Virus record (IMG/VR): IMGVR_UViG_3300037502_003558
Location: 1-33,124 of that record
DNA: 33,124 bases
Direction: 5' to 3' (one strand)
Origin: a virus
The first letter of the stretch is position 1; each line of letters opens with the position of its first letter. The notes below the pieces were generated by a model that made no database searches, was not told where the DNA came from, and saw only the letters and a list, made by a program, of their open reading frames with translations. Position numbers and translations under genes: made by a program. Positions 2,571 to 33,124 of the stretch are shown here, one piece after another.

Positions 2571-2964
2571 CGTGGTTTTCCATGACCCTGTAGCTGGCGC
2601 TGCGATAGTTGGCCTGCCCTGGGATCACTGCCCGTACACCGCCCACGGGATCCTCACAATCACCGGATCTGCGTGGAATGAGATGCACATGCGGATACAT
2701 CACAGTCTGCCCTGCTGCACGGCCCATGTTGAGTCCCACATTGTAGCCATCGCATTCACCGCGATCTACCATGCTGTCACCCAGGCACTGCGCAGCGAAA
2801 AAAGCTTCGCGTATCATGTGACTGTTGTTGTACACCGGTACGAACAAGAGATGGCCCGGGGTCACGGGAAATCTATCGCGGAATACCTGCACATATTGGT
2901 CCTGGGACACCAAGAGATCCCAGGGCGCTACGCCCTCACGCTGTGCTTGCTCTAGATCAGTCAT
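2566..2964 (-). CDS. HIT (histidine triad) family protein
   Basis: 132 residues starting at an ATG that overlaps the folE stop (TGATG); a TTG one codon upstream is less likely. The middle contains FPVTPGHLLFVP, the conserved strand region of HIT proteins, and the C-terminal part has YPHVHLIPRR, the H-x-H-x histidine triad with the last His replaced by Pro-Arg. HIT proteins hydrolyse nucleotidyl phosphoesters such as Ap4A or AMP-lysine-type adducts. The gene sits between folE and queD, so it could act on a nucleotide by-product of the pathway, but HIT proteins are also common as lone phage genes. Its stop codon lies inside the late promoter of queD. Family is confident; substrate is unknown. 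Confidence 0.82.
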   Translation of the reverse strand: MTDLEQAQREGVAPWDLLVSQDQYVQVFRDRFPVTPGHLLFVPVYNNSHMIREAFFAAQCLGDSMVDRGECDGYNVGLNMGRAAGQTVMYPHVHLIPRRSGDCEDPVGGVRAVIPGQANYRSASYRVMENHV

Positions 2965-3647
2965 CAATCATGCCCTTTCATGGACAGGCAGATATCATAG
3001 AATTCTTTCTTCAAGGCAGGATCACTTCGGAACGCTCCCAGCATGATGGCAGTGGTCATGTCAGACTCATGCTCACGCACGCCGCGCTGTGTCATGCAGT
3101 GATGCTCGGCTTTGACCACCACTGCGATGTGATCTGTGCGGGCATATTGTTTGAGAGCGTCGGCGATCTGCGTGGTCATCTCTTCCTGTATCTGTGGGCG
3201 TTCGCAGATGTGATGCACCAGGCGATTGAACTTGGACAGTCCTATGACCTCTGTGTCAGGCACGATACCTACCCAGCAACGTCCCACGATGTTTTGGAAG
3301 TGATGTGCGCAGGTGCTGCGTATCGAGATGGGACCCGTGGTATAGAGGCTCTTGTAGCCGAGATTGGGAAACGCTGTGACTCGTGGTGCAGGCAAGTATC
3401 TACCACTGAATGTCTCTTTGACGAACATCTTGGCCACCCGGCGAGCCGTGTCCTGTGTGTTGTGATCGTTGGCAGTGTCTATCACCAGGCTGTGTAGCAC
3501 GCCCTGCATTTTTTCTGCCACTTCGTCTACCAATTGATCTACTTCTTCTGGTGTCACGAAATCTGAGATATTGTCGTTTGAGTGGAAACGCGCACCGGCC
3601 TGCTGGATGCGTTCGCGTATGATGTCGCTGAGATGTCTGTCTGTCAT
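2964..3647 (-). CDS. folE: GTP cyclohydrolase I FolE
   Basis: 227 residues, normal length for the family. It opens the GTP imidazole ring and forms dihydroneopterin triphosphate, the QueD substrate. Zinc ligands are present: Cys113 and His116 in STCAHH and Cys184 in EHHCMTQRG, matching the Cys-His-Cys set of E. coli FolE. Other hallmarks are GLSKFNRLVH and QERL-like QIQEEMTTQ. The ATG at 3647 is preceded by GGAGG at ideal spacing. Upstream are a strong sigma70-type promoter and an overlapping late-type box, so the gene may be transcribed early as well as late. The HIT gene overlaps its stop. First committed step of the deazaguanine pathway. Confidence 0.95.
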   Translation of the reverse strand: MTDRHLSDIIRERIQQAGARFHSNDNISDFVTPEEVDQLVDEVAEKMQGVLHSLVIDTANDHNTQDTARRVAKMFVKETFSGRYLPAPRVTAFPNLGYKSLYTTGPISIRSTCAHHFQNIVGRCWVGIVPDTEVIGLSKFNRLVHHICERPQIQEEMTTQIADALKQYARTDHIAVVVKAEHHCMTQRGVREHESDMTTAIMLGAFRSDPALKKEFYDICLSMKGHD

Positions 3648-7823: not shown

Positions 7824-8344
7824 AATGGTTGATCCCAGGAGTATTGATTCCAGTCAGTGAAAGTTTCCCGGCTTTGTAGATTATGTAGGCTGTGGCACCA
7901 CACACCGGGATTGGTGGCAGCGAAATCTCGATCATCGATTTTCAGCATGGTGTTGTAGTTCCACAGGCCGATGTAGGGTATGCTCACACGGATCTGTGGT
8001 ATAAAGTTGCGATGCTCGCACAGTCCACCTTCGTGGAATCCCTCGACCTGATTCATGGGTATGTCCAGGCTGCAGAGAAATCCACGATCCAGGTACAGTT
8101 GTATGACCCGTTCCCAGGCCATGATCTCCGCGACTGTCCTGGGATCGTAGCTGTGATTGGCACCGAAAAATATGTGTCGTATGGGTTTGGGTAGGCTGTC
8201 GAGATTTGCGTCCCGCAGAGCCGCATCTATAGCAGACTCTGTTTGCAGTCCCACCACGAACAGCGTTCGCTCACCGTATGCGGGAGTGCGCTCTACTTCG
8301 GTGCCCAGGAAAAACTCAGTGTCTTGGTGTCCGGGTCTATTCAT
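7820..8344 (-). CDS. conserved-looking protein of unknown function beside dpdA
   Basis: 174 residues, soluble, start overlapping the dpdA stop (ATGA). It has distinctive runs: FFLGTEVERTPAYG (11-24), LFVVGLQ, HIFFGANHSYDP, VSIPYIGLWNYN, KIDDRDF and the near C-terminal NPGVWCHSLH. Alternating strands and helices with LCSLDIP and RHIFFGANHS recall half of a Rossmann or TIM-barrel fold. No catalytic family was recognised. Tight coupling to dpdA on one side and the QueD-like gene on the other suggests a job in making or placing the modified base. Confidence 0.72.
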   Translation of the reverse strand: MNRPGHQDTEFFLGTEVERTPAYGERTLFVVGLQTESAIDAALRDANLDSLPKPIRHIFFGANHSYDPRTVAEIMAWERVIQLYLDRGFLCSLDIPMNQVEGFHEGGLCEHRNFIPQIRVSIPYIGLWNYNTMLKIDDRDFAATNPGVWCHSLHNLQSRETFTDWNQYSWDQPL

Positions 8345-9909
8345 GCTTGATCCTGTTCTAGTTGGTCTAGTTTGTGTTCGTCTAATTCTACTGTGTCTGC
8401 GGGCGGTGCGTCAACCTCAGTTTGCTCTACTGCAAATAATCGGTTGAATTGCGTGGTGGCGTTTTTGGTTTTCTTGCCTTTGAGTCCGCGGGTGCCAACG
8501 ATGTCCATCCAGTAACGATCATAGCGTTCGATCAGGGCCTCGGCCGCGGCGCGGTCTGGAGCGGCAAAGATATCTTCCACTAGATCTTCAAATCGCGCAT
8601 GGTCACCGTTCTGATGCCACATCATGCCGGGTCTCTCGCCTGCATCAAACTGCCGGTTGGCACGCTGCACTGATTCCAAGTGCAGCCAAACATTGTGCGC
8701 CATGAGCAGTGCATAGCTAAAACTGTCCCAGCTGGTCCGGGCCACTTTGCCGTTTTTGTTGGTTTGGTTGGGTTGATACACACAGATATCTTTGAGCTGG
8801 CATCTCAGGCTCACAGGACTTTCGTCAAAATGATCGATCCAACCTTCCTGCAGCGCGGCCTGGCCATACAGCCTGGTGTCTGAGCTCCACCGCCGATCAT
8901 CCACGATGGGCGACATCTTGTAACTCCACCTGCCGTTGTCGGGCAAATCGATCCGATAGTACACCTGTCCATTGGCTGTGGCCAGGAACGGTGATGCACA
9001 GTCGAAACTTATGGTGAATCTGGGGTTCACGTGCCTACGCACCGCGCGTTGTAGTGCTGTCAGCAGCACTGCCCACTCCAGTTTGGATGTGCCCAGGAAG
9101 TGCATCCAGTCATGCACACCCGGCTGCAACAGCCCATCATATCTCAAGGCCACCAAGCGCCGAAGTATGAGATGCACGTCGCACATGTTCTGTCCACCCA
9201 TGCCCCAACCATCGAAATGCCTGCCGGGATATTTGCTGGGATCGCAGTAGTGTTTCATGGTGTCGTACCATGAGTCAGCGTCGCGATGATTGGCACCCTG
9301 CAGCACATTGAGATACCGAGCTCCGCCCTGGTCCACACCACGGCGATTGGCTATGAAGTAGTCGTTGTTGTATATGGTGGCCTCGACCGCGTCGCGATAA
9401 TCGCGTATCCGGGTCTTTTCAGTGCTGCCTGGCCACTGCGAAGTCCAAGTGGGTATATCCAGTGTGAGTCCGTATGTGGCCAAGCCATCTTGCCACTTCA
9501 GCACTGCCTCGCGTTTCTTTTGTGCTCGCGGACAACCTGAATTGGCCCGCCAGTCACCTTCCCACACACCCTTGGCGATCTGGAATCCTCCTGAATCGCA
9601 CAGCATGGTCACCGCGGGATCACGATTGCGGATCATGTCCTCTTTGGGATTCACTCGTGTGAGATCTAGGTCTGCGTGGCCTGCGCTGTACAGAGCCCAC
9701 TGATAGGGAAACAGCGCCCGCTGTGCATTGAGGAAGTTCAAAGCCTCCATGTCCTTGATCTGCGCAGGCATGCGTGCAGGATCCACATATTGCTCATGGC
9801 GCTGGCGGCCTATGAACGTGGCGTAAAAACTCGATATGGCTGGCAAGAAAATCGCGTAATCGTTCTGCGCAGCAGTGAAATTATGTTGAAGAAGTTGAGT
9901 GTCAGACAT
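8341..9909 (-). CDS. dpdA: DpdA, DNA 7-deazaguanine transglycosylase (TGT-like)
   Basis: 522 residues. Phage DpdA exchanges guanine in DNA for a 7-deazaguanine base and is a relative of tRNA-guanine transglycosylase (TGT). Seen here: LCDSGGFQIAKG (Asp105, the TGT substrate-binding Asp), LDIPTW (Asp151), YLNVLQG (199-205), GWGMGGQN (234-241) and ISFDCASPF (Asp303, matching the TGT nucleophile in its FDC-x-x-P motif). The TGT C-terminal zinc motif CxCxxC is not evident, as in other DNA-acting relatives. The acidic C-terminal tail is rich in Asp, Glu and Gln. It lies in the same gene string as folE, queD and queE. The start overlaps the end of the sulfotransferase-like gene by eight bases. Confidence 0.87.
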   Translation of the reverse strand: MSDTQLLQHNFTAAQNDYAIFLPAISSFYATFIGRQRHEQYVDPARMPAQIKDMEALNFLNAQRALFPYQWALYSAGHADLDLTRVNPKEDMIRNRDPAVTMLCDSGGFQIAKGVWEGDWRANSGCPRAQKKREAVLKWQDGLATYGLTLDIPTWTSQWPGSTEKTRIRDYRDAVEATIYNNDYFIANRRGVDQGGARYLNVLQGANHRDADSWYDTMKHYCDPSKYPGRHFDGWGMGGQNMCDVHLILRRLVALRYDGLLQPGVHDWMHFLGTSKLEWAVLLTALQRAVRRHVNPRFTISFDCASPFLATANGQVYYRIDLPDNGRWSYKMSPIVDDRRWSSDTRLYGQAALQEGWIDHFDESPVSLRCQLKDICVYQPNQTNKNGKVARTSWDSFSYALLMAHNVWLHLESVQRANRQFDAGERPGMMWHQNGDHARFEDLVEDIFAAPDRAAAEALIERYDRYWMDIVGTRGLKGKKTKNATTQFNRLFAVEQTEVDAPPADTVELDEHKLDQLEQDQA

Positions 9910-19962: not shown

Positions 19963-20634
19963 TCAGCGTTCCTCTACGTAGTCTTGATCTAAGCTGGATT
20001 TCTTGCGGCGATTACGGAATAAATCAATGGCCATCTGTGCCTGGTCTATGTCCGGGAAGCGTGTGAGCATGCTGCGACCACCTCTGCGTATCTCAAAACC
20101 ACGATGCTGATCACCGTGTATCTCCAGCATCACACCGTCTTCCATGGCCACGGTTTTAACCGGTGCTGATTCCGGCATCACAGGATCCTGTGTGGGTGCA
20201 GGTGGCGCTGCAGTAGTGGTGTCTATGGCTGTGGGGTCTTCGTCGACTTCTTGTTCTTCGGCTTGGCCTTTTTCCACAGCATCCACGGCTTTTTGTTTGA
20301 GTTCGCGATCTACTTGTGCTTTCTTTTCCAGCTTGTCTAGGTACGTGGTGAGATCTCGTTTGACCTTGCTCAGCATGTCTTCTTCTATCTCGGTCATGGC
20401 CTCTTCTAGGGCAGTGCCCTGCGGTTCCCGGCTGTCACCCACAAACTTGCCGGCCATGGGATGCTGGGGATCTTGTTTGTTGCCCAGCGCACGGATCTTT
20501 TTAGGATGGAACAGTGCGGGCAGCTGATCCACTGATTTCTGTTGCGGATTGAGTCCTTTGGTCACCGAAGTTGGTGTTAGATCTGACTCTGCGATCTGAT
20601 CTATGCGTGTGAGTATCGCGCGGATATCGTTCAT
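19963..20634 (-). CDS. virion-type protein with helical N-terminus and protease-site leader
   Basis: 223 residues. It begins MNDIRAILTRIDQIAES, with I-A-E as a candidate cleavage site and a resemblance to the leader of the nuclease candidate at 27959-29140. Then a charged coiled region (about 80-130, with EEAMTEIEEDMLSKVKRDL), a Pro/Thr-rich linker, and a small strand-rich C-terminal part with VAMEDGVMLEIHGDQHRGFEIRRGG. It overlaps the Dps gene stop (ATGA) and precedes the LysM protein gene. Possibly a prohead core or internal protein; no family recognised. Confidence 0.68.
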   Translation of the reverse strand: MNDIRAILTRIDQIAESDLTPTSVTKGLNPQQKSVDQLPALFHPKKIRALGNKQDPQHPMAGKFVGDSREPQGTALEEAMTEIEEDMLSKVKRDLTTYLDKLEKKAQVDRELKQKAVDAVEKGQAEEQEVDEDPTAIDTTTAAPPAPTQDPVMPESAPVKTVAMEDGVMLEIHGDQHRGFEIRRGGRSMLTRFPDIDQAQMAIDLFRNRRKKSSLDQDYVEER

Positions 20635-21074
20635 TGCCGTTCCTCTCTCAGGAAACTACGCAGCATCCAACGATGCTTGCCCATGGCATCTATGCGCTGC
20701 GCTAAGAAATCCATGATACCCTGTTGGTTTTCTGATTCCGCTGTGGCAAAAGTGCTGTTGAGGAGATCGATCATGGTCTGGCAGTCAGCCAACAATTCTT
20801 GTATCATGAGCCGGGCTCGCGGAACTTTGAGCTGCCCTTTGATCTGACTGAGTTCTGCAAATCTCTCAAAGCTGCCAGGGGTATAATCGTCTAGGATACG
20901 TATGAATTCTGCGGTCCGATCTATGCTGTTGTCGTAGACTTCTTGATAGATGTCACCAAAAAATTCGTGTAATTGCGCAAAGTCGCTGCCTTCTACGTTC
21001 CAGTGGAAAAATTGGGCTTTGACCACGAACGCATACTGCGTTGACAAAAGAGTTTTGAGATCATCTACCAGCAC
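20631..21074 (-). CDS. dps: Dps-type mini-ferritin (DNA-protection protein)
   Basis: 147 residues from a GTG at 21074 with TCTGGAG six bases upstream; the longer ORF would start inside the preceding gene and upstream of a late-type promoter box. Dps proteins form dodecamers that bind DNA and oxidise iron with peroxide. The first helix has FFHWNVEG and LHEFF, and the second IDRTAE: His24, His36, Asp52 and Glu56 fit the inter-subunit ferroxidase site, with one extra residue between the two parts relative to E. coli Dps. There is no Lys-rich N-terminal tail. Placed among packaged proteins, it may protect DNA in the virion or the host nucleoid; it has no visible capsid leader. Confidence 0.85.
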   Translation of the reverse strand: MLVDDLKTLLSTQYAFVVKAQFFHWNVEGSDFAQLHEFFGDIYQEVYDNSIDRTAEFIRILDDYTPGSFERFAELSQIKGQLKVPRARLMIQELLADCQTMIDLLNSTFATAESENQQGIMDFLAQRIDAMGKHRWMLRSFLREERQ

Positions 21075-21097
21075 GGCTGACTCCAGAAAAGTTAGAG

Positions 21098-21105
21098 TAT
21101 TTAGC
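21098..21105 (-). promoter_or_regulatory. late-type promoter box upstream of dps
   Basis: The minus strand reads GCTAAATA, six of eight to the T4 late element TATAAATA and sharing the CTAAATA core found before queD and folE. It overlaps the stop of the preceding gene and is 23 bases upstream of the GTG start, which supports that start. Confidence 0.42.
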
Positions 21106-21415
21106 AGTGCGGCATAGTGATCAGGCCTTGTTGATCTATGGTGGCTGGACCTGACAGTATGTGCCAATTCACCACAGTGATGCGTGCTTGCTGTGGATCC
21201 AGCAATTCATGTGTTACTTGGTAGTTCCTAAATTGTCCCGGAACCTTGCCGCCCTGGCACAACACCACAAACTGTTCTTCTAGATAGCACTGTTCCCAGG
21301 TAAATCGCTGTTCATGGAACAATTGATCCTGTACCCAGACTCTATAGCGCGGTGGCTTGCCTTGCCAGTCCATGTACACATAACAACCCACCTTTACTGG
21401 GATGATTTTTTTCAA
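21101..21415 (-). CDS. unknown small protein with TTG start
   Basis: 104 residues. It starts at TTG with CGAGGA upstream and overlaps the stop of the previous gene by TTGA. It begins MKKIIPVKVGCYVYMDWQG and is strand-rich with many Gln, Trp and Tyr (RYRVWVQDQLFHEQRF, ITVVNWHILSGPA), likely a small beta-barrel or beta-sandwich. No capsid-targeting leader. Between the internal-protein block and Dps; a virion-associated role is possible but unproven. Confidence 0.68.
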   Translation of the reverse strand: MKKIIPVKVGCYVYMDWQGKPPRYRVWVQDQLFHEQRFTWEQCYLEEQFVVLCQGGKVPGQFRNYQVTHELLDPQQARITVVNWHILSGPATIDQQGLITMPHC

Positions 21416-21597
21416 GCGATCCTCGTGACACCTGTGACCAGGGCATCATTACCGTATTGTGCTTTCAACAACAGTCTGGCCATCACAGGTGACTTGGCGA
21501 ATATAGCTACATCTATGCCCATGGTGTAGCCGGGGTTCTTGACTTTGACCCGTGCCGAGTATACATGGAATCCTTGATCAAACTCTTGCGCTCTCAT
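21412..21597 (-). CDS. 61-residue protein with capsid-leader-like start
   Basis: Starts MRAQEFDQG, a variant of the shared MRAREF leader but without an (I/L)-x-E cut site. The body, HVYSARVKVKNPGYTMGIDVAIFAKSPVMARLLLKAQYG, looks like a small strand-helix protein. ATGA overlaps couple it to both neighbours. Function unknown; membership of the packaged set is inferred from the leader. Confidence 0.72.
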   Translation of the reverse strand: MRAQEFDQGFHVYSARVKVKNPGYTMGIDVAIFAKSPVMARLLLKAQYGNDALVTGVTRIA

Positions 21598-21989
21598 GAT
21601 CGACTTTTGTTGCCCCAGTTTTTAGCACCACGTTTGCGACACTGAACCAGAGCTCCGGACGCATAGGCGCTGGGCCATACCTTGTAGCGGCTGCGTACTT
21701 TGTGGTAACAGGCGTCTTTCTTTTCACGCAGATTGCGCTGTTTCCGGAGAGCGTCGATCTGTCGCTGGATGTCAGCTATCTCCCGATCTTCTACGTCGTT
21801 TTCTTGGTCCAGGCGCATGATGTCGTCGCGGTCCTGGCCCTGTGTGCGGCGATAATCAAACACCAGGGCTTCGATATCGCTGTTGGCATGCGGGTTTGCT
21901 GCCCGTAGTTGTTTCATGATGCGCGCAGTGCGTGGTGATGAACCTACTTCTACGCCGGTATCTTCCTGGATGAATTCTCGAGCCCTCAT
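21594..21989 (-). CDS. packaged basic protein with MRAREFIQE leader
   Basis: 131 residues from the ATG at 21989 (ATGA overlap with the gene before); a start at 22121 would run through that neighbour. MRAREFIQE gives the leader and an I-Q-E cleavage site. A coiled region (ENDVEDREIADIQRQIDALRKQRN) follows, then KKDACYHKVRSRYKVWPSAYASGALVQCRKRG, a cysteine- and lysine-containing basic motif that I know as a recurring domain of unknown function in phage proteins. It probably binds nucleic acid in the capsid. Confidence 0.78.
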   Translation of the reverse strand: MRAREFIQEDTGVEVGSSPRTARIMKQLRAANPHANSDIEALVFDYRRTQGQDRDDIMRLDQENDVEDREIADIQRQIDALRKQRNLREKKDACYHKVRSRYKVWPSAYASGALVQCRKRGAKNWGNKSRS

Positions 21990-22339
21990 GACTTTTTCCT
22001 TGTGGCTACGTTTTTGGCTGCGCCGCGGCGCTCGGGATTGGGATCTTCTCTGCGCTTGCGTGCTGCTGCAGATGCGCGTCCTTTTTTGCCCAGGGCGTGT
22101 GCCTTGCTCTGCGGCAGGCACTTGGGCTTGCCTTCGGATTCGCTTCCCCTAGCACACTCACCACGGATTTTGCCGTCGGGGCCAAAACGCACCCATTTTT
22201 CACGGAACCACTTGCGCAGATCCTCGTCCACGGGCTCGGTCCTGCGTTGTGCGAACATGGGCATGGCCACGGTGGCTACACCACCCGCGGCAGTGGCACC
22301 TGCGCTGGCTGTTTCTGTGATGAATTCTCGGGCTCGCAT
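21986..22339 (-). CDS. packaged Lys/Arg-rich protein with MRAREFITE leader
   Basis: 117 residues. The leader MRAREFITE is followed by an Ala/Gly-rich hydrophobic stretch, then EKWVRFGPDGKIRGECARG, a Cys/Lys part (GKPKCLPQSKAHALGKKGRA) and a strongly basic tail (ARKRREDPNPERRG). The WVRFGPDGKIRG-C-C pattern recurs as a small domain of unknown function in phage proteins. Charge and leader point to a DNA-associated internal protein. Overlaps the next gene by ATGA. Confidence 0.8.
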   Translation of the reverse strand: MRAREFITETASAGATAAGGVATVAMPMFAQRRTEPVDEDLRKWFREKWVRFGPDGKIRGECARGSESEGKPKCLPQSKAHALGKKGRASAAARKRREDPNPERRGAAKNVATRKKS

Positions 22340-22343
22340 GTGT

Positions 22344-24656
22344 TTACTTATTCTTCTTGCCGCTCTTCATGTTGGCGCACCAGTGGTACATTTTCCCCCG
22401 TTCGCCACCATATTTCTTGGCTCGAGCTCGCAGATCTGTCACACTGCCCTTGCAACTGGCACCAGCGCGTCGCACACGGCCAGGTCTGCTTTTTCCTTTG
22501 ATTTTGCCATCCGCGAAATTTTCATCCATTCTCTGCGCAAATGCCCGGGCCTGTTCGAGATCTCTGCGGCTGAATGGTCGCAGTTCGCCACGAGCTACAT
22601 CCGCCCGCACCCTGCTGATGTCATAATCTACAAACTGTGTTTCGGCGCCGCCGGTCTCGTCTGGGCCTACCAACTCTTGTTCCGAGGCGAATCTACCGCG
22701 GCAATCAAAGGCCGTACCGTCGGGAGCAACGACATAGACATGATCCACTCGATAATCGTTATCACTTTCTGCATCTTCGTCCCAACCTATGTGCGCACGC
22801 AACTGCCAATCGGGATGCAGCGTCAGGAGAGCCAAGGCCATGACATGGCAATGTCCGCGCATGAAGTCAGGCTCTGAGGTGGCCTCTGATACATCATCGG
22901 GCCGCCGGCGTGGCAGCCGCTCGATGTCCTTGATGGATCCAGCGGCACCGAGATCAAACTCCGGAGGCACATATCTGCCACCATGGTCGCGTATATGATC
23001 CCGGAGATCCGCTATGCTGCCAAAGCCGCGCCGCTCCAGTTCTTCATCCATGTCAAACATCTCGCCCGTGGCCCACTGATACAGTGCCAGGCTCATGACG
23101 TCAGGATCTTCACCACGGCGCACACCATGCTCGACTCGTCCCACCACGGAGTCCCACTGCTGGTCTTGCAGGTCTATATCAAGATCACTGATGCGGCCTT
23201 CGGCCATGGCCTGTGTGCCCAGGTGTCCATAACGCCTCAAGGTTGTTTTCAAGGCTTCCATGACCTCGTTGCTGTAGCGTATCAACCGGGGATCCACCAC
23301 ACGCACCGGTGCCTGCTCAATTCCCGCCTGCTGCAAAGCAAAGTAGCGATGGTGCCCGTCTATGATGCGATAGCCTCCGCGCACTGGTGTGACCAACAAG
23401 GGCGGTATGCGTCCTCCTTGCTGTAATGTCCGTATGAGGCTGGCCACGGTACGCCGGCTGGGCAAGTCCTGCATCTTGATCATGGGTTCCCAGGGTTTTA
23501 ATTCTGATACTGCCACGGTCTTGAGGGGGAAGTCCTCGATGCGCATGCGCTGGCCCGACGCTGTGCGTGCCCCGGTGTTTTGCGGATTGGTCATCATGAC
23601 TATGGGCGCATCTTGCTCGCTGCCGATGTTGCGTATGTAATTGACGATGTCGCGCAGACCTTCGTCTAGATAGTCACGCCAATCCGCGGGATCACCGCTC
23701 ACACGATAGAACACCACGTCACGCGGTTCAAATCTAACGTCCGGCAGTTTCTTCCATGAAAAGCCCCCGCCCTGTTCATAGATGTGGTAGGGTATGTCTA
23801 TGGTGTAGACGCCTTCAGCGAACCGCGCTGCCACATACACATGCTGCTCGTGGCTGCAGCTCACCGAGGTGCATTCAATGCCTGCATCACTCAACACATC
23901 ACACACGCTGTCGGCTATGATGTGGCAGATGCCGCCACCGGCATAGGTATCGCGATCCTCTTCGTCCCAGGCATCGTAATCCCGTTGTGCCCGGGCCAGG
24001 ATCTGGGGTATGGCCTGCTGCGCCCGTGTCACCGACGGCAGATTTTCTGTGTCAGAATCTTCACGCAGTCCGCTGCGGTGGTATTCGGTGGCACGACCGT
24101 TGGGATCCACATGCCAGGCGTAGAATCGGCTCCATGGAAAGTCACTGCTCAATGTGAGAAACGCATTGAGATTGGGCACGCTGTCGTCGTACATGATGAC
24201 TTTGTCGTAGTGTTGTTTGCCCAAGAGATGCTGGAGGATTATTTTTTTCTTTTCTTCAGTTGCCGCACGCGTCTGTAGATTGCCAGCACGGTACACATGC
24301 ACCCGGTTCATGTCTATGCCATACTTGCGGAAAGTGTCTAGGAACACATCGCGATCATTGAAGTCTGCGCGTGCTGTGAGCATGATGACCTTGTTGCCCG
24401 TGGCGATGTCTCTCTTGAGACGATCGATCATGGGTGCTATGGGCCTGGCGTTAGTGTAGAATTCACGAGCATCACGGAAACGCCCAAAGTCAAACTCTTC
24501 ACCGGGCTGTAGTTTGTAGTGCGTAAAGTCATGGCTGTTGAGTTGTTTGACAACCTCACCATCCCGCACTACATTCACACGTGTGTCAGTGTTGACCAGC
24601 GTGTCGTCAATGTCAAACACCACCAGTTTGGTATTGGCGAATTCACGGGCTTTCAT
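22344..24656 (-). CDS. multidomain packaged protein: HAD, papain-like, ParB-like, papain-like, basic tail
   Basis: 770 residues. The leader MKAREFANT lacks the usual Glu. Residues 10-185 are a HAD-type phosphatase (FDIDDT 14-19, LTAR 93-96, YDDS 156-159). Residues 240-290 hold a cysteine-peptidase-like Cys244, His272, Asp287 set. Residues 378-460 match a ParB/Srx-like fold (DGHHRYFAL 433-441). Residues 600-655 hold a second set: Cys603, His639, Asp651. The C-terminus (715-770) is a basic Cys-containing domain ending in Lys-rich sequence. Such fusions suggest a multifunctional injected protein acting on host DNA or proteins. Reactions are unproven; both Cys-His-Asp sets are read by eye. Confidence 0.8.
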   Translation of the reverse strand: MKAREFANTKLVVFDIDDTLVNTDTRVNVVRDGEVVKQLNSHDFTHYKLQPGEEFDFGRFRDAREFYTNARPIAPMIDRLKRDIATGNKVIMLTARADFNDRDVFLDTFRKYGIDMNRVHVYRAGNLQTRAATEEKKKIILQHLLGKQHYDKVIMYDDSVPNLNAFLTLSSDFPWSRFYAWHVDPNGRATEYHRSGLREDSDTENLPSVTRAQQAIPQILARAQRDYDAWDEEDRDTYAGGGICHIIADSVCDVLSDAGIECTSVSCSHEQHVYVAARFAEGVYTIDIPYHIYEQGGGFSWKKLPDVRFEPRDVVFYRVSGDPADWRDYLDEGLRDIVNYIRNIGSEQDAPIVMMTNPQNTGARTASGQRMRIEDFPLKTVAVSELKPWEPMIKMQDLPSRRTVASLIRTLQQGGRIPPLLVTPVRGGYRIIDGHHRYFALQQAGIEQAPVRVVDPRLIRYSNEVMEALKTTLRRYGHLGTQAMAEGRISDLDIDLQDQQWDSVVGRVEHGVRRGEDPDVMSLALYQWATGEMFDMDEELERRGFGSIADLRDHIRDHGGRYVPPEFDLGAAGSIKDIERLPRRRPDDVSEATSEPDFMRGHCHVMALALLTLHPDWQLRAHIGWDEDAESDNDYRVDHVYVVAPDGTAFDCRGRFASEQELVGPDETGGAETQFVDYDISRVRADVARGELRPFSRRDLEQARAFAQRMDENFADGKIKGKSRPGRVRRAGASCKGSVTDLRARAKKYGGERGKMYHWCANMKSGKKNK

Positions 24657-25036
24657 GATCGCTCATACCGGAGTGGTGCTACTCTGCGGTATCCATAATC
24701 ACTGGCCAGGCGATCCGCCATGCGTTGATATAATTTTGTGCGTGCAGGATCTTGCGCAGTGAATTCTATCCTGCGAGGTGGCCTGCGCTGTGACAAAAAT
24801 TCTCGCATGGCCTGTATGGCCGTGGCGAACACTCTGGCAGCATCGCCTTGTCCTGTGGCATCGGTGCGGCCGCCACGGGTGAATGCCAATTCTAAAGTGT
24901 CGGTGTCAGGCCAGAAACTGAATTCAAATTCCAGCACACGATTTTCATCGTCACGGGCCAGGGCAGTGCCGACACCACGCCATCTCAAGGCATAGGGACG
25001 ATCAAATAGTTCAGTGATGACTTCCCGAGATTTCAT
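24653..25036 (-). CDS. packaged small protein with MKSREVITE leader, possibly GNAT-like
   Basis: 127 residues. The leader is MKSREVITE with an I-T-E cut site. After strands VLEFEFSFWPD and LELAFTRGG comes a helix (DAARVFATAIQAMREFL) and a C-terminal strand-helix (RRIEFTAQD, RTKLYQRMADRLASDYGYRRV) resembling the second half of GNAT acetyltransferases, though the acetyl-CoA RxxGxG loop is not seen. Coupled by ATGA to both neighbours. Function uncertain. Confidence 0.7.
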   Translation of the reverse strand: MKSREVITELFDRPYALRWRGVGTALARDDENRVLEFEFSFWPDTDTLELAFTRGGRTDATGQGDAARVFATAIQAMREFLSQRRPPRRIEFTAQDPARTKLYQRMADRLASDYGYRRVAPLRYERS

Positions 25037-26346
25037 GTGCGAACGTCTCGCTTGCCTAGATACTGATAGAAATCAGCGAAGTTTTCTTGGCGATCACGGG
25101 CGCCAGCCTGCGCTGGATTTATGGTGGCTGTGACACGGCGCGTGTCATAGAAGTTTCGGACGTTGGGTTTGGTGCGATTTTTCCAATACCATACCGCTAT
25201 CTGGGCCGCGATCTCGGGCTGGCTGGCTATGTCAGGTTGTTTTTCCAAGGGCAAACCCAAGGCTTGTCCAGCGCGACGATAGTTTTCACGGCCAGTGAGT
25301 TGTATGTAACCACGACCCCGATAGCGCCAGCCATCACCACTGGCTTCGTCGCCATTGCCGTTACGGTTGGCATAAGCACGATTGGCTATGTCCCGGGGAC
25401 GATTGGCATACTGACTGGCGATGCGTGCCGTGGGGAATGCCGAGGGAAATGTCTTCATGAGTCCCTGCGCTGAATAACTGAGATCTTCGCCCATGACGCG
25501 GAAATCATTGCTTTCGTGCGCGGTCTGTGCCAGCAGTGCGGCCAATTCACTGCGTTTGCGTATGCCAGCCTTGACAGCGGCCTGTGTGACCAGGGCTTCG
25601 CCACGTGTGCCGGTGAGAGTCCGGTTGACATCGATATTCTTGGTTGGTTTGGCAGCTGCCCCCGGTGCTGCAGCAGCGGGTTTTTTGTTGGCCACAGGAG
25701 TTTTTGCAGCGGGTTTGGTCTGCACCGGTTCTGACGTTCTACCCAGTTTAGGCACAAGGATCTCTTGATCGACTTCGACCCGGAAGTCAGGACCCAGCCC
25801 ATTCAATCGTTGTATGACCTGGGGTGTGGTGCCAAACGCACGAGCGATGCTGTACACGGTCTGTCCAGGCTGCACCACCACTGTCTCTGTGCCTGCAGCC
25901 TGGGCCGGTGACCCCATGGCCACGCCAGCGCCCAAGGCCAGGCCAGCCAGGGTGTCGCGCCAGCCTTCCTGCAGTGATGCAGGATCCACACCCGGCACAT
26001 GCAGCACATGGTCTGCGTCCGCTGGCAGCCTGCCAAACACTGTGGCCACTTTGTAGATTTTATCTTTGTGATCCATGACCCTGAGGCCCACGGCTTTGTT
26101 GAGTTTTGGGTCATACAGCCAGAACTCTTGTCCTCGAGTGAATTCCATCATACGGCGCCGTACCATGGGCAACTGTTTCAAGATCGCATCACGTTCTTGA
26201 TCCGATACTCCGCGTTCTATCTGCCGATCTCGTAGATGATATTCCTTTTCGGGTGGATCTCCAGGACCCGGTTCGTCGAAAATGAGATTGATGTCGCCGA
26301 TGCCCCATGATCGCTGACGTTCCGTGATGAAGTCTCGGGCTCTCAT
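25033..26346 (-). CDS. packaged LysM plus glycoside hydrolase family 19 enzyme
   Basis: 437 residues. Leader MRARDFITE (I-T-E site). Residues 36-115 are a small unknown domain with HLRDRQIERG. A hydrophobic segment (131-150) is followed by a LysM domain (155-199) for peptidoglycan binding, a Lys/Pro/Ala linker, then a GH19 domain (about 245-415) with TAHESNDF (Glu278 as catalytic acid) and GRGYIQLTGRENY, the family signature. GH19 phage enzymes cut peptidoglycan. With a capsid leader it would be carried in the particle, unlike most endolysins; it may aid entry, or serve lysis with the holin-like gene at 27738-27962. Confidence 0.88.
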   Translation of the reverse strand: MRARDFITERQRSWGIGDINLIFDEPGPGDPPEKEYHLRDRQIERGVSDQERDAILKQLPMVRRRMMEFTRGQEFWLYDPKLNKAVGLRVMDHKDKIYKVATVFGRLPADADHVLHVPGVDPASLQEGWRDTLAGLALGAGVAMGSPAQAAGTETVVVQPGQTVYSIARAFGTTPQVIQRLNGLGPDFRVEVDQEILVPKLGRTSEPVQTKPAAKTPVANKKPAAAAPGAAAKPTKNIDVNRTLTGTRGEALVTQAAVKAGIRKRSELAALLAQTAHESNDFRVMGEDLSYSAQGLMKTFPSAFPTARIASQYANRPRDIANRAYANRNGNGDEASGDGWRYRGRGYIQLTGRENYRRAGQALGLPLEKQPDIASQPEIAAQIAVWYWKNRTKPNVRNFYDTRRVTATINPAQAGARDRQENFADFYQYLGKRDVRT

Positions 26347-26348
26347 GG

Positions 26349-27068
26349 TTATCCCCGCCAGGCCACGAGGCCTATGTCATAGTGATTGATATAGCCCCGG
26401 CGATACACATGTATGTTTTCGGGCGTGCGCACGTTGGTATCCATGACTCCCCGCTGTGGGCTCACTGGAAACACATAGGTGGGGAATCTACCCGACACCG
26501 GAGCAGGCTGGGCTCCCATGAGTTCTAGGCTGCGTACATATTCACGGCCACCTTCGGCATCCAGTTCCTGGGGCGTGCGGTTAGAGTTGAACTGTATCCA
26601 ACCTTGCACAGGTATGCCTGCCGCAGCCATGTTGACCCAGAGCCTGGCACCAGCAGGACTCTGTGAATCATCGGCCACGAGAGTGTGTCGGGCTCGCAGC
26701 TGACTGTACAGCGCACGGGACAAGCCCTGTCCGCGATATCGGGGATCCACAGCGATAAGCCGCACGTCTTGGGGATTACCGGGAAAATTTACACTGCTGT
26801 CATCGTACATGATCACAGCCACGGCACGACCGGTATCGCGCTCCACGAATCCCGATGCCGAGTAAAGCGGCACATACTCTCCTGCGTAATCGTCCACGGG
26901 TATTATGTCGGGTGCTGACAGGTCTTGGAACGCTGCGAGCTTTTGATTCACGGGTCGGGTTTGGCTGGGGTCTACCTCGATCTTGTCCAGGGGCACACCG
27001 TCCGGGAACAGATCTTGTTCCGCGCTGAGATTTATCTCTTGTAGGGGTTGGAATTCACGGGCACGCAT
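26349..27068 (-). CDS. packaged GNAT acetyltransferase
   Basis: 239 residues. Leader MRAREFQPLQE (L-Q-E site). The acetyl-CoA motif is at 103-122 (RLIAVDPRYRGQGLSRALYS, with R-G-Q-G-L at 112-116), preceded by the strand VAVIMYDD. The C-terminal 90 residues have no clear family. GNAT enzymes acetylate amines of proteins or small molecules. I infer an injected modifier of a host target. Next to the GH19 and kinase-fold genes in the leader-bearing block. Confidence 0.78.
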   Translation of the reverse strand: MRAREFQPLQEINLSAEQDLFPDGVPLDKIEVDPSQTRPVNQKLAAFQDLSAPDIIPVDDYAGEYVPLYSASGFVERDTGRAVAVIMYDDSSVNFPGNPQDVRLIAVDPRYRGQGLSRALYSQLRARHTLVADDSQSPAGARLWVNMAAAGIPVQGWIQFNSNRTPQELDAEGGREYVRSLELMGAQPAPVSGRFPTYVFPVSPQRGVMDTNVRTPENIHVYRRGYINHYDIGLVAWRG

Positions 27069-27071
27069 GGC

Positions 27072-27707
27072 CTAGCTCCAGCGGATCCAGGGATCTGTTA
27101 TCACATAGGTGCCATCACTGCGTTTCATGACATTGCCGCCGTGTAGGTCCCACTCATATCGCCAGTTGGCCTTGCTGTAAGCATCCTTGACGGCCTGCCA
27201 CAGGCTCGGTATCTGCTTCTTGTTTTTCTTGACCCAGTCGCGGGCGTAGTTATATTTTTCTAGTCCCCGGAGGAACTGCCCAAGGTCCCGATTGTCCTGG
27301 ATATATGCTGACATCATCTCGATGATCTCGGCTTCTACGTCGTCGATATCCTCCAGTTGTTCCATGGCGATCTGCAGGTAATTTCTGTTGCCGATGCGGA
27401 ATTTTGCGAACACGCTGCTGCGTCCTTGTTCGTCCTGCATGGGAAAGAACCGAGGCCAATGAGAGCTGGGGCGGGCCTGTGTGAGTTTTAGGAATCTCTT
27501 GAAGGTCTTCATGGCGGGTTTGTTGGAATCCCCTTCGCTCATGATGATCTTGATGACCCTGCCATCATCTTTTGCCCAGGCCGTGGCGTCAGCTCCGCCG
27601 CCCAGATAGGTATAACCAAGCTGGTGCAGACGCTTTTCGATTTCTTCGGCGCGCGGGGTAAGGTGTTCGTATTCTTGTACGGGTTCTTGGAATTCTTTGA
27701 ATCGCAT
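27072..27707 (-). CDS. packaged kinase-fold protein
   Basis: 211 residues. The leader MRFKEFQEPVQE is a variant with a Q-E cut site. A Gly-rich loop YLGGGADATAWAKDD (34-48) is followed by VIKI (Lys53), and near the C-terminus WDLHGGNVM (Asp187, Asn192) and ITDPW (Asp205) correspond to the catalytic loop and metal-binding DFG/D of aminoglycoside-phosphotransferase-like and protein kinases. The fold is short but key residues are present. T4 injects an ADP-ribosyltransferase (Alt) by the same type of leader; this may be a kinase counterpart. No ribosome-binding site is obvious. Confidence 0.77.
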   Translation of the reverse strand: MRFKEFQEPVQEYEHLTPRAEEIEKRLHQLGYTYLGGGADATAWAKDDGRVIKIIMSEGDSNKPAMKTFKRFLKLTQARPSSHWPRFFPMQDEQGRSSVFAKFRIGNRNYLQIAMEQLEDIDDVEAEIIEMMSAYIQDNRDLGQFLRGLEKYNYARDWVKKNKKQIPSLWQAVKDAYSKANWRYEWDLHGGNVMKRSDGTYVITDPWIRWS

Positions 27708-27737
27708 CAGTTATTTACCGTGGTCACTGATACTGTG

Positions 27738-27962
27738 TTATTCGGGATTTTTGTTGCTATTTCCGTTGCCGTAACGCATGTTCAGGAACTTTTTGGCCAC
27801 TTCCGAACCGCCCACAGTGGCCACGTACACCAGCAGTAACTCCCAGTTGGTGGAATTGGCATTGGCTATCACCACGTAGGTAGCAGTGGCATAGGCCACG
27901 TTGGTCCAGAATTTGCTGGCGGAAAAATTACCGTTGGGATCACGGCACAGCGCAGAGATCAC
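27738..27962 (-). CDS. small holin-like membrane protein, GTG start
   Basis: 74 residues with two hydrophobic stretches (about 22-35 and 41-52). The start GTG overlaps the stop of the nuclease-candidate gene (GTGA). The N-terminus CRDPNGNFSASKF and charged C-terminal tail with Asn and Lys resemble small phage holins (D-x-NG-x-x-S-x-x-K-F). No capsid leader. A holin role is inferred from size, topology and the nearby GH19 gene; it is not certain. Confidence 0.62.
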   Translation of the reverse strand: MISALCRDPNGNFSASKFWTNVAYATATYVVIANANSTNWELLLVYVATVGGSEVAKKFLNMRYGNGNSNKNPE

Positions 27963-29140
27963 CGCCTGCGCTCCCGTCCCAGCGTGGCCACGTCACGGCG
28001 CGGTTCTGCGCGCGACCGTGCTGCTCGCGCTCCTGGCCCTGTGAGTCTGGGCCCTGTGGTCACACGGTCAAGCTCCTGGTCTAGGTCAGCTTTTTTCTCG
28101 GCACGACTGGGACGCTCTATCACGTTGCCATCCTTGTCCACCAGTATCACGTCTTTGTCGCCGCGGCGTCCTATGGCCCGGGTCAGCACCGAAGCCATAG
28201 GCCTCAAACCACGTATGCCCAGGCTCTTGCTGAGCCTACCAGCATTGTTGCGGATCAACCACACCATGAGATGGCTCTCGGGTATGTCTTCTTTGTTCTT
28301 GATCACGGCATGGCACTCTATGGTGATCTTGTCTTCTTCCTGCAGGAAGTGCTCGGGACGGAATGTCTGTATCACGATGCCGCCCTGAGGATTTATGTCC
28401 GAACCAAAGATAGCGCTCATGGCTTCTTCTTCCGTGGGCTCTACCACGATCTCTTTGCTGAGAGCGTAGCCATCTTCGCCTGGCAACTTGCGCAGTTCTA
28501 CCACACCCCGGTCCACGAGATCGTCGATGATCTCCCGGGCTTTCTTGCCAAACATGGTATCAGCGCTTTCCCAGGTCTCTGCGTCCAGTTTCTTGAGACT
28601 CACAGGCAAGCGTTGCTTTTCGCTTTTCAGCACCACGTCGGCTTTTTTGCGCTCTTTGACATCTTTGCCCACGAGTTCTACGTCTGTGACATCTCGGATG
28701 TCCAAGGTCTTGCCGCGTGGATCCTGGAACCGCACGTCGATCTTGCCATAGCGTTCCACCATGCTCTGTAGTATGCTGGCCAGCTCGGCTTCGTTGGCCA
28801 CACCAGCGCTGCGTTCGCCCTGCACTCCTACGTCCTTGACCACGATCTTGGTGGGATCGTTGGCAAATCCTATAAAGCCCAGGCTGCTGATCTTGGCGTC
28901 TACACCAGCATAGGGTTCGAGATCCGGCGCTTGCCGGAGCAGCGTGGCCAGGAGATCACGGAATATGTTTTTACGGTATTCGTTCTTCTTTGCACCATCG
29001 GGTATCTGCACCAGCACCGACATGCGGTTGCCACTGGACTTGGTATCAAACCCCGCGGCCTGGATCATGCTTTCCAGCTCAGGGTTCACGGCTTCGGTGA
29101 GGCCTGCGATTTCATCCAGTCGATCTAATATGTCTCTCAT
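27959..29140 (-). CDS. putative PD-(D/E)XK-type nuclease, virion-associated
   Basis: 393 residues. It begins MRDILDRLDEIAGLTEA, with an L-T-E site. ANEAEL (Glu117), KADVVL (Asp168) and PVSLKKLDAETWESAD (Lys183) have the order and spacing of the E...D...(S)xK core of restriction-endonuclease-fold enzymes. The C-terminal 60 residues are Arg-rich. It overlaps the holin-like gene (GTGA) and the GNAT gene (ATGA). A packaged nuclease could act on host DNA at entry, with phage DNA protected by its base modification. Fold assignment is moderate and no biochemical role is proven. Confidence 0.62.
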   Translation of the reverse strand: MRDILDRLDEIAGLTEAVNPELESMIQAAGFDTKSSGNRMSVLVQIPDGAKKNEYRKNIFRDLLATLLRQAPDLEPYAGVDAKISSLGFIGFANDPTKIVVKDVGVQGERSAGVANEAELASILQSMVERYGKIDVRFQDPRGKTLDIRDVTDVELVGKDVKERKKADVVLKSEKQRLPVSLKKLDAETWESADTMFGKKAREIIDDLVDRGVVELRKLPGEDGYALSKEIVVEPTEEEAMSAIFGSDINPQGGIVIQTFRPEHFLQEEDKITIECHAVIKNKEDIPESHLMVWLIRNNAGRLSKSLGIRGLRPMASVLTRAIGRRGDKDVILVDKDGNVIERPSRAEKKADLDQELDRVTTGPRLTGPGARAARSRAEPRRDVATLGRERRR

Positions 29141-29700
29141 GTTGTCTGGGCTTTCTTGATATCACGTCCCGGCGCCAAGATACGACGCCAGCGCTGCAGG
29201 AATCCTTGAGGCTGGGGCTTGGTGGGTTCTGGTGGCGGTGGGGGAGGTTCGCTGCGGAACACCGGCTCGTCGGAGAGTTCCAAGGGTTTGCCGGCACCGG
29301 CTCCGCCCTGCTGCCAGAAATCCGCGCCGGCATGGGTCTGCAATCTGCTGGGTCGCACTTCGTTGTCCAGCATGCGGGCAAAGTTGTACATGGCCGATGC
29401 CAGCCCGCGGCGACGATATGCTTCTTTGGTGCCGGTGTTGAGGCTGGAGAGATACCACTCACCGGTGTCGCGATCCTGTTTGGCGGCGAACGACACATCG
29501 GCCACGGGCCATCGCAGTTCGGGATCTGTGGCAGGATCAAAGATCTCTATCTTGACGCCACGACTGTCGGGCATGTCGGAATATCTTTTTTGACCACGCG
29601 CCTGTATCACTAGGCCATTTTTCATGCGGCGCTGCAGGCGGAAGTCGGGTTCCAACACTGCATCGTTGATCTTTTCTGGCAGGAACTCTTGGGCTCGCAT
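29137..29700 (-). CDS. packaged GNAT-like acetyltransferase with Pro-rich tail
   Basis: 187 residues from the ATG at 29700, which overlaps the amidoligase stop (TAATG); a start at 29766 would run into that gene. Leader MRAQEFLPE (L-P-E site). WYLSSLNTGTKEAYRRRGLASAMY (split over about 82-105) shows the GNAT beta4-alpha3 region with R-R-G-L-A. A Pro-rich linker (about 150-165) and basic tail follow. Acetyl acceptor unknown. Confidence 0.75.
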   Translation of the reverse strand: MRAQEFLPEKINDAVLEPDFRLQRRMKNGLVIQARGQKRYSDMPDSRGVKIEIFDPATDPELRWPVADVSFAAKQDRDTGEWYLSSLNTGTKEAYRRRGLASAMYNFARMLDNEVRPSRLQTHAGADFWQQGGAGAGKPLELSDEPVFRSEPPPPPPEPTKPQPQGFLQRWRRILAPGRDIKKAQTT

Positions 29701-32700
29701 TATCTCATCTCCGGTACGACTTCGATGTCCGAACCTGCCAGGTCCGGTCGGTTGCGTGCCACCCATGCCGCGGCCACGCGATTGGCATCGGCCTGCACGT
29801 TGCCAAGACCTATCAGCGCTGTGAGGTTCTGTCCAGTGTTGGGATCACGCACTAACCAACGTCCCGTGAACTCGCCCTGTGATTGTTGGGCTGCCTGCTG
29901 TCGCTGCCGTTGGATATCCAGGGTGGATCCTGGCACGGCATTCTCCAAAGGTACCAACTGATAACCCGTGGGGCCGCCCATCGGGCGGACCCAATCTTGA
30001 AAGTATGCCAGAGCTTCTTCGGGGGTATTGCGAGTGAACGATATCAAGATGCGATCATCCCCAGTGTTTACGATGGCATAGTTGGCATCAGGATCGCGAG
30101 TGGTGTTGGCACGTGGTGCACCCATGTTCGGATTGCCGGTGGGCAATGGCCGTGGTGCGCGCCAGGCAGGAGGATCTGTAGGTGCGGCTGTGACGTTGAA
30201 AGGTTGGCGTCCCTGCGCCCTCAAGGAATCGATCAGTCTTTGGGAAGCCTCGGCCGCGGTGCGGGCCACGGTGCGCAGGCTGTCATTTACCATTCTTTCC
30301 CGTGTGCGAGTGGTGCCGTCGTTGGCACGCCCGGTCTCGGTGCGATATTCGCTCCAGCGCACCAGCCAATCGCTTTCTCCCGGTGCCAGCGCGTTGGGAT
30401 CCGGTCTCGCTCCAGGTGCTGCGCCCAGGCGTGCCTGCAGTTCCTGGCTGTCGGCCTGGGCATCGGCCCGCTGTTGTATATACTGCTGGGTTTCGGCAGC
30501 AGTGGCGGCCCGCACCAAGAAACTGTCGGGATCGTTGTGATACAGATAGTTGAAGCCGGGATCGATCCTGCGTGCTTCCCGGTGTGCTGCATCTTTGTCA
30601 CTGGCCTGCACCAGGATCACGCGACCGTCATTGGTGTCCTCCACGCGCCATACCAAGGGACGATCCAGGATCTTCCGGGCTTTTTCCGCTCGGCGAGCCC
30701 CGGTCTTGCTGCGGGGTTCCGGTGTTGGGGGTTCCGTCTGTATGGTGTCTCGAGTGTCCTGGCGATTTTCCATGTCCAGCACGGCCTTGGCCCACCGTGT
30801 CTTGAGTTCCGGGCCTGACAGTGTGCCGGCAGAATAGTCAGCGAACAGTTGCATGAAAGGACTATCGCCCTGTGTCTGCACATCGGTGCTGTATCTCAGG
30901 CGTGCGGGAAACTCTCGACGTTCCTGGTCAGTGGCCCGGCGCACCTGCATGCTGTTGGCGTCCTGCCACTGGGGTCTCACGCGACGCACTGCCTGCCGTG
31001 CCGCATCTGCTGTGGTGGCCGCGACCTGTGCTGTTTCGCCCGTGGGCTCCCAGGTCACGGTGTAGACGTCCTCGCCACGGCTGATCTCGGTTCCTTGGTA
31101 ACCGGTCAGGACCTTGTAGAGTTTCTTGGCGTATTCATCTCGATAGAGATCGGGCCTGCCCGCGATATTCATGGCATAGGCCAGCCGCAGCATGGTGTTT
31201 TCCAACACATCATCGATCTCATCACTTTTTGCGAGATAGTCACCGCCCGGCCCACGGAATTCAATGTAGCCATCGTGGGGATTCACGCTGACATACTTGT
31301 TGCCCAGCACGCCGCGCTTTAAGTCTCGGTCTGCGAGTTCTATGAGATTTTTCTTCATGAGATCCATGATGCCCGAGATCTGCTTTGGGCCAGCTTTTCG
31401 CATGTCGTCTATTTTGCTTTGCAAACGTTGCATGGCCGAACGCGCGTAGGTGTTGCTCTCGCGCCCAAAGGTCTCCAGGATGTTCCGGTCGCCCATGAAC
31501 AGGATCAGCTTGATGGGATCCACTTCACCGCCTTTGTAGGGCAGGCTCACGCCCATGTGCAGGCCTGTTGATGTGTTGGTGTAGGCATTGCCTGCGCCGT
31601 TGGCCCAGTTTATCACTCTCTTCAGTTGCTCCAGGGCCTCGGGCAAGGGCAGGGGCGGGCTCACTATCTCCAGGCCAAAGTCTGTGCTGTCATCGGAGTC
31701 GATGCTGCCATCGGGTTCTAACACATAGTGGCCGGGTATGCGCCTCTTGCTGTGATAGCCCGAGCCCACGTCCACGGGCATGCCCGTGATGCCTTCCAGG
31801 CTGGCACCGATGTCGGCCCAGTCTCGGCCACCGGAACCGCTAGACTCCGTGAAGTAGGGCCAGTCGATGTTCCAAGCATCGGCCACGTCGGTCATGTAAC
31901 GATAGCCATTCTCGCTGAGCCAATCCGCTTCGTCGGCTTCGCTGATATAGTCATTATACAGCTCTTCGTCAGCCCGCTCGTTCCACTCTCCGTTGCGCCG
32001 ATAATCCCGCTCGGCGTCTTCGCGGAACAGTTCCAGGGCTTGCTTTTCCAGTTCTTCGTCGCTGATTTCATCATCGCCCAGGGCGTCACGGGCCTGCTCA
32101 CGATAGTCATCCTCTACTTCGGGCCATATGTTTTCTTCCACCCACTCCATGAAGCGCGATTCAGTGAAGTAGTCGTTGTCGAAACTTTCCCGGATCCAGT
32201 CCAGATACTGTTCTTGCATGTCAGCACGCAGTCGCTGGGCCCGCCTGAAACTGATGCCTTCTTGGCCGCCCTCGAAAAACTCTATGACTTGATCTATGCT
32301 GCGGGCCCGCTCGTCCTGGCTATAGTCATATCCACCTTCATCAACGTCGTCATCGCCCTGGGCATCGCGGAACACCATCTCGGCCTCAAAGCCCGCACGG
32401 ATGCCCGCAGCCTCGGGGCTGGCCAGGAACTGCCGCAGCGCTGATGGTGACATCTTGACTTCTGTGAGTTCTTGTGATTCCGTGAGATTGGGGTCTCTCC
32501 ACCCCACAGGCGGGAGAAAAGGCACCAACTGATAACCTCGGGGGTTCATCCGTTCCTTGACCCACTCCTGATAGAACTCCATGGCTTCCCGATCGTTGTC
32601 GCGGCGGAACGGCAACACCACGCGATTGTCCTGGACCTGTACAATGGCATAGTTGGCATAGGGATCGTGATTGATGTTCTGACGTGGTGGACCCATGACC

Positions 32701-33124
32701 GTGCTGCTGGCTGGCCTGGCGGCGGGAGGCTGATACTCGGGAGGCTGATAAGGTTCTACCCGCATGTCCCGGGCCCTCCGGGCACTGGCATCGCGCATCT
32801 TGACCAGATCCAGGGCCTGGCGCGCGCTGTCAGCCTGCACGATGAGTGTGGCGGGCTTTATGCCCCGGCGTATGGTCCAGGTCAAGCGCCATCCCGGCTT
32901 GCCTTCACGGTCAGGCTCTGGCTCCAGTGGCACCAGCCACACAGCTATACCAGGACGTTCGTTCTGATAACTGCGCAAGCGATCTTGTGCTGCCGCGGCG
33001 GTGGGGGCCGGGAAGCTATCCGAGACGTCACCGTTTTGAACCACCATGGCCCAGTTGTGACCTGACTGTCCCCAACCCTGGTAGAAGGTACGACCGCGTA
33101 CGGTCTGTGGTGGGCGTGGCGTGG
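29700..33124 (-). CDS. giant amidoligase-like virion protein with repeated small domains (5' end outside window)
   Basis: Reading is open from the stop at 29700 to the window edge, at least 1,140 residues; an ATG at 33047 exists but 25 more in-frame codons upstream match a repeat unit, so the true start is outside. Numbered from that ATG, residues 198-650 resemble amidoligases of the glutamine-synthetase-like fold: GFEAEMVF (219-226), a long acidic helical insertion, FGLEIVSPPL (457-466), STGLHMGV (493-500) and IEFRGPGGDY (595-604). LTESQELTEVKM (188-199) holds cut-like sites. Two small domains recur around it (see findings). Such enzymes form amide bonds. I infer an injected peptide- or protein-tagging enzyme; the activity is unproven. 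Confidence 0.8.
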   Translation of the reverse strand, partial: TPRPPQTVRGRTFYQGWGQSGHNWAMVVQNGDVSDSFPAPTAAAAQDRLRSYQNERPGIAVWLVPLEPEPDREGKPGWRLTWTIRRGIKPATLIVQADSARQALDLVKMRDASARRARDMRVEPYQPPEYQPPAARPASSTVMGPPRQNINHDPYANYAIVQVQDNRVVLPFRRDNDREAMEFYQEWVKERMNPRGYQLVPFLPPVGWRDPNLTESQELTEVKMSPSALRQFLASPEAAGIRAGFEAEMVFRDAQGDDDVDEGGYDYSQDERARSIDQVIEFFEGGQEGISFRRAQRLRADMQEQYLDWIRESFDNDYFTESRFMEWVEENIWPEVEDDYREQARDALGDDEISDEELEKQALELFREDAERDYRRNGEWNERADEELYNDYISEADEADWLSENGYRYMTDVADAWNIDWPYFTESSGSGGRDWADIGASLEGITGMPVDVGSGYHSKRRIPGHYVLEPDGSIDSDDSTDFGLEIVSPPLPLPEALEQLKRVINWANGAGNAYTNTSTGLHMGVSLPYKGGEVDPIKLILFMGDRNILETFGRESNTYARSAMQRLQSKIDDMRKAGPKQISGIMDLMKKNLIELADRDLKRGVLGNKYVSVNPHDGYIEFRGPGGDYLAKSDEIDDVLENTMLRLAYAMNIAGRPDLYRDEYAKKLYKVLTGYQGTEISRGEDVYTVTWEPTGETAQVAATTADAARQAVRRVRPQWQDANSMQVRRATDQERREFPARLRYSTDVQTQGDSPFMQLFADYSAGTLSGPELKTRWAKAVLDMENRQDTRDTIQTEPPTPEPRSKTGARRAEKARKILDRPLVWRVEDTNDGRVILVQASDKDAAHREARRIDPGFNYLYHNDPDSFLVRAATAAETQQYIQQRADAQADSQELQARLGAAPGARPDPNALAPGESDWLVRWSEYRTETGRANDGTTRTRERMVNDSLRTVARTAAEASQRLIDSLRAQGRQPFNVTAAPTDPPAWRAPRPLPTGNPNMGAPRANTTRDPDANYAIVNTGDDRILISFTRNTPEEALAYFQDWVRPMGGPTGYQLVPLENAVPGSTLDIQRQRQQAAQQSQGEFTGRWLVRDPNTGQNLTALIGLGNVQADANRVAAAWVARNRPDLAGSDIEVVPEMR

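Follow-up and report, generated by a model that had tools for sequence, protein, structure and literature searches.

The window analysed here, a 33-kb fragment (33,124 nucleotides) of an uncultivated virus, holds nine neighbouring minus-strand genes (21412-29700) whose products open with MRAREF-like peptides, all of them as listed in the first-pass annotation. In seven of them an [ILV]-x-E is reached by residues 9-12 (three ITE, and one each of IQE, LQE, VQE and LPE); the annotation gave most leaders an (I/L)-x-E there, and one of the seven has V at P3. In the minus-strand coordinates that follow, the upper end of each leader is the start of its gene. The site-bearing leaders are MRAREFIQE (21963..21989), MRAREFITE on protein 21986-22339 (22313..22339), MKSREVITE on a DUF6934-type module (25010..25036; gene 24653-25036), MRARDFITE on a LysM-GH19 protein (26320..26346), MRAREFQPLQE on a GNAT-like protein (27036..27068), MRFKEFQEPVQE on a T7 gp0.7-like kinase (27672..27707) and MRAQEFLPE on another GNAT-like protein (29674..29700). 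The cut site is absent from the 770-aa HAD protein (MKAREFANT, 24630..24656), whose homologs retain the core, and from a 61-aa protein (MRAQEFDQG, 21571..21597), whose homologs retain MRA[RQ]E[FL]-like starts. A 393-aa minus-strand protein (27959..29140) starts with MRDILDRLDEIAGLTE and has [IL]-x-E near its start without the MRAREF core. Adjoining the leader block, a 74-aa protein (27738-27962), holin-like by our reading, had no homolog among the comparison loci.

The source appears to be a jumbo relative of phage T4. The closest isolate to the DNA polymerase of the contig is Sinorhizobium phage Phosso (49.5%), the next is Agrobacterium phage Atu_ph07 (46.6%), and after these it lies nearest to the jumbo phages of the GAP32/121Q cluster. 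No MRAREF-like leaders were found in the 81% of the Phosso genome that was scanned, and neither a 125-aa leader family nor the CKGS module described below had a match among the isolates searched. Several leader families of 120-135 aa occur in the related loci (L073, L003, L023, L119 and others), often in tandem and with a common C-terminal tail like SPVKGFKGY[PA]R. Elsewhere in the window lie a GTP cyclohydrolase (2964-3647; phrog_2197, 2e-50) and neighbours (2005-2514 and 8341-9909) that we read as 7-deazaguanine-like genes.

The MRAREF leader is a phage signal beyond chance. In the window the motif stands at 8 of 37 gene starts, while of 256 other in-gene ATGs one has it (p = 3e-7); the corresponding figures for G001, a 316-kb relative used for comparison, are 8 of 439 and 3 of 2255 (p = 5e-5). 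Both comparisons rest on our own greedy gene calls. A DNA pattern made degenerate to cover MRAREFIxE matched at least 120 viral-contig stretches, and among the viral matches listed nearly all are starts of open frames, while a control pattern with the codons in scrambled order had no viral match. Run over 257 Gb of genomes from bacteria and archaea, the same MRAREFIxE pattern gave 17 matches, mostly gene-internal. Among 95 leaders of relatives that were not selected by the pattern, position 9 is Glu in 60 (background 6%) and positions 7-9 read (I/L)-x-E in 58. The probabilities given here treat the cases as independent, and common descent inflates them.

The proteins behind the leaders belong to unrelated families, and their functions are putative readings at the family level. 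A kinase fold and a peptidoglycan hydrolase had been named in the set, and both hold: the T7 gp0.7-type kinase matches phrog_15752 (5e-15) and, in a structure search, kinase/APH folds, while the hydrolase combines GH19 (PF00182, 2e-12; residues 264-395) with LysM (PF01476, 3e-11; residues 157-199) at 25162..25878 (minus strand). The kinase had no relevant match among PDB sequences, and in its predicted model residues 1-18 are disordered and the remainder is kinase-like. Stand-alone GH19 copies of up to 231 aa are without a leader and most multidomain copies have one; the leader in this way tracks the GH19 form, and the window protein is a multidomain one. Of the proposed HAD/papain/ParB fusion, a 770-aa protein (22344..24656, minus strand), the HAD part stands (phrog_415, 1e-13; residues ~5-190) and ParB_N (residues 402-453) falls just under Pfam's cut-off (1.9e-5), whereas the 'papain' part comes from our own reading of Cys/His motifs and is a possible Cys-peptidase-like part. 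The GNATs named in the set are weak assignments (3.5e-4 at best). A further multidomain protein (29700..33122, minus strand), open at the contig end, contains an Amidoligase_2 module (PF12224) and a joint, ELTE/VKMSPSAL (here and below a slash marks the putative cut); a related 1699-aa protein likewise has an amidoligase, together with a nucleotidyltransferase-like part (weak, below cut-off).

The larger proteins are mosaics of modules, and the motif of the leader site recurs at the module boundaries inside them, a feature absent from the first-pass account. Five small module types were located across all comparison loci, and each distinct upstream octamer was counted once. Directly before the module, [ILVM]-x-E stands in 118 of 126 distinct contexts (background 1.7% per position), both after leaders and at internal positions; where the module follows a leader, the motif is found in 28 of 28 cases with a tolerance of one residue. 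One protein, in locus L256, consists of a leader and four modules, each preceded by such a motif, and the DUF6934-type module that follows a leader in the window occupies an internal position in other loci, behind HLKE in L246 and GIME in L248. On the minus strand of the window, an ACYHK-type basic module (21597..21722; phrog_727, 2e-23), with a relative in cyanophage S-SCSM1 gp29, is preceded by NLRE, a CARG-type basic module (DLRKWF..GPDGKIRGECARG, 21989..22222; phrog_727, 6e-14) by PVDE, and the C-terminal CKGS module of the 770-aa protein (NFADGKIKGKSRPG..YHWCANMKSGKKNK, 22347..22520) by RMDE. At 25897..25968 (minus strand), in the hydrolase, the joint SLQE is directly followed by GWRDTLAGLALGAGVAMGSPAQA, a segment that we read as signal-peptide-like. 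Candidate joints of the 770-aa protein end at GLRE199, YLDE332, DVSE591 and RMDE712; its model (mean pLDDT 52) is poor outside HAD, too poor for placing the joints in linkers. From the pattern of residues, the joints are likely protease sites.

A protease of the expected type occurs in the relatives. Three isolates and 16 metagenomic relatives carry the T4-type prohead protease gp21 (PF03420), and these 16 are the related metagenomic records with gp23, all of which have it; the window itself, being a 33-kb fragment, has neither gene. In 28 further contigs, most of which look fragmentary (27 of 64-167 kb, and G002 of 262 kb), gp21 gave two matches, and gp23 is also absent from G002. Near its N-terminus, the gp23 of the relatives has a conserved L-x-E/[NST]A[ST]AG[AS]T..GN[IV]AT, and MRAREFITE/TASAGATAAGGVATVA in window protein 21986-22339 is nearly this cleavage-site context. 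Therefore, by resemblance, the leader site can be tied to the site of the head protease.

Related proteins are reported from cyanophage virions. S-SCSM1 gp29 is made of the same basic modules as window proteins and is labelled a virion protein in its GenBank record. According to the genome paper on S-SCSM1, mass spectrometry detected 45 virion proteins, the NMNAT among them (PMC9602691), and the gp29 label presumably reflects those detections. This NMNAT starts with MKSFLQFLKE/A. For S-CRM01, a kinase has been reported among the contents of the virion (PMC10665884), and the annotated kinase of that phage starts with MISFDQFLSE/K. The S-CRM01 acetyltransferase g185 (L406:5045-5440, plus strand) also has a T4-type leader, MKTFDEFLTE. 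T4 IPII and IPIII start with MKTYQEFIAE/A, and T4-type MKTFxxYLxE leaders coexist with MRAREF leaders in the 316-kb relative and in another genome (G003).

On this evidence we regard it as probable that the leader proteins are packaged in the head and injected, with a gp21-type cut after the site, and that the larger ones are polyproteins cut at their joints. The MRA[RQK]E[FL] leader would direct proteins that are made late to the core of the prohead, much like the T4 capsid-targeting sequence; a gp21-type protease would cut after the (I/L/V)-x-E that follows the leader in most cargo, and the mature proteins would enter the host along with the DNA. Larger cargo would be built of swappable modules, each with its own [ILVM]-x-E at the front edge, and would be split at the joints by the same type of protease inside the head. 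Targeting, cleavage, virion presence, injection and host effect are all steps that we infer from sequence comparison. The first-pass annotation had proposed a T4-type head-targeting leader on injected cargo, and the core of that proposal is well backed, on comparative grounds, by gp21 in relatives, the gp23 context, the unrelated domains and the cyanophage virion proteins; the two leaders without a site depart from it. The residues for targeting and those for processing can be separated in T4 (PMC9026906), so leaders without the site can still target, and the HAD and 61-aa proteins may be packaged uncut.

It is rather unlikely that the leader targets and its site is cut while the internal [ILVM]-x-E is a conserved structural edge of the module that stays uncut, the big proteins entering the host in one piece, a route proposed for polyvalent proteins. 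Since the modules have a common origin, the joint Glu could persist for another reason than cleavage, and the N4 virion RNA polymerase is reported to be packaged unprocessed (PMC5512222). At the joints, however, P3 and P1 are fixed and P2, P4 and positions further upstream vary freely, as in a protease site, and one motif is common to leader, joints and gp23. Probable cleavage at the joints is the reading that we keep. That the N-terminal peptide sends the proteins elsewhere, to a replication compartment or membrane, so that they act in infection and never in virions, would agree with the leaders that have no cut site, but we hold it to be highly improbable: the site context resembles that of gp23, the EF-I-x-E layout agrees with T4, and virion proteins of cyanophages have the same modules together with leaders of a comparable kind. 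A last alternative is that the starts resemble one another through a translation-start element or through a 5' cassette that spread as DNA. Cassette spread was suggested earlier from similar coding DNA around the leaders and the recurrence of GAATTC (19 in the window, 5 of them at leaders). This alternative can scarcely be credited and was rejected, since leader codon positions 1 and 2 are 75% identical and third positions 54%, the 30 bases upstream of leader genes are 30% identical, near background, and GAATTC, which encodes 13 of the 37 E-F pairs outside leaders in the window, is the common Glu-Phe codon pair here.

A late promoter directly before each leader gene was considered and rejected. 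The late-promoter core TAAATA is present upstream of the kinase gene, at a distance of 10 bases (27712..27717, minus strand), but it precedes 10 of 163 leader genes as against 892 of 4801 other genes; it is probably rarer before leader genes because most of them lie within operons, and the signs of late expression are at operon level. A Dps-like DNA-binding protein (20631-21167; phrog_3636, 5e-26), which has the same gene order in the 316-kb relative, has TAAATA at 21103, upstream of its likely true start.

A further step can be offered tentatively, as a possibility that we would sooner doubt than assume. The prohead protease may process cargo polyproteins in such a way that few late genes yield strings of modules, cut at each joint in the head into many injected proteins, and some cuts would expose an export signal, by which the host would send the hydrolases to its own envelope. 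Candidates for such signals are a Pfam TAT signal (1.1e-6) right after MRAQELLVE in a leader protein of the 316-kb relative, from residue 9, at the predicted cut, and Sec-like GW..LA..A segments right after L-x-E before GH19. At L311:10570-10965 (plus strand), MRAQELLVE is directly followed by a Pfam TAT signal, which cleavage behind Glu9 would place at the N-terminus.

The leader together with [ILVM]-x-E before each module may serve as a sequence rule that predicts virion-carried, injected proteins among the unknowns of T4-like and jumbo phages. Should the joints be cut, the cargo would form a packaged polyprotein system, modular in build, of a DNA phage, for which we know of no earlier description and which would let one protease make many injected proteins from few genes.

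Several known systems invite comparison. The ejected head proteins of phiKZ and SPN3US share with the cargo proposed here a giant head, many injected proteins and a prohead protease that cuts after Glu, although, as seen through one review (PMC9026906), these phages are of another lineage. The kinases and NMNAT/cytidylyltransferases carried by virions of cyanophages S-CRM01, S-SCSM1 and S-CREM2 are likewise non-structural enzymes reported from virions, and those whose starts were read have MxxFxxF[LF]xE; their leaders, in contrast to MRAREF, are T4-type, and virion presence is not linked to the leader in the accessible parts of those papers. Polyvalent proteins of phages and conjugative elements (Iyer et al., 2017, PMC5512222) also combine ParB, peptidase-like, GNAT and peptidoglycan-enzyme parts in multidomain mosaics, and the several unrelated domains per protein that mark them are found here, with HAD, ParB_N and the CKGS module in 770 aa. 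Packaging and injection of polyvalent proteins are predictions (PMC5512222), and neither a leader for head targeting nor a prohead-protease motif where modules meet was found described in that paper, whose text has 'prohead' once and 'leader' nowhere. A further parallel is the capsid-targeting sequence of the T4 internal proteins and Alt, which are processed by gp21: it too is a short N-terminal peptide, laid out as EF-(I)-x-E, that proteins otherwise unrelated have in common, and a gp21-type protease is present in relatives with gp23. The T4 targeting residues are an aromatic at position 4 and Phe at 7, whereas here the core is one residue shorter to Phe, which stands at 6, and R/Q/K occupies position 4, with Arg replacing the aromatic. 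The T4 aromatic at residue 4 being unmatched, the leader would work like the T4 one rather than belong to that sequence family. Unlike the T4 sequence, it is found on kinases, HAD, GH19 and GNAT-like proteins, and its cut motif is met again within the larger proteins.
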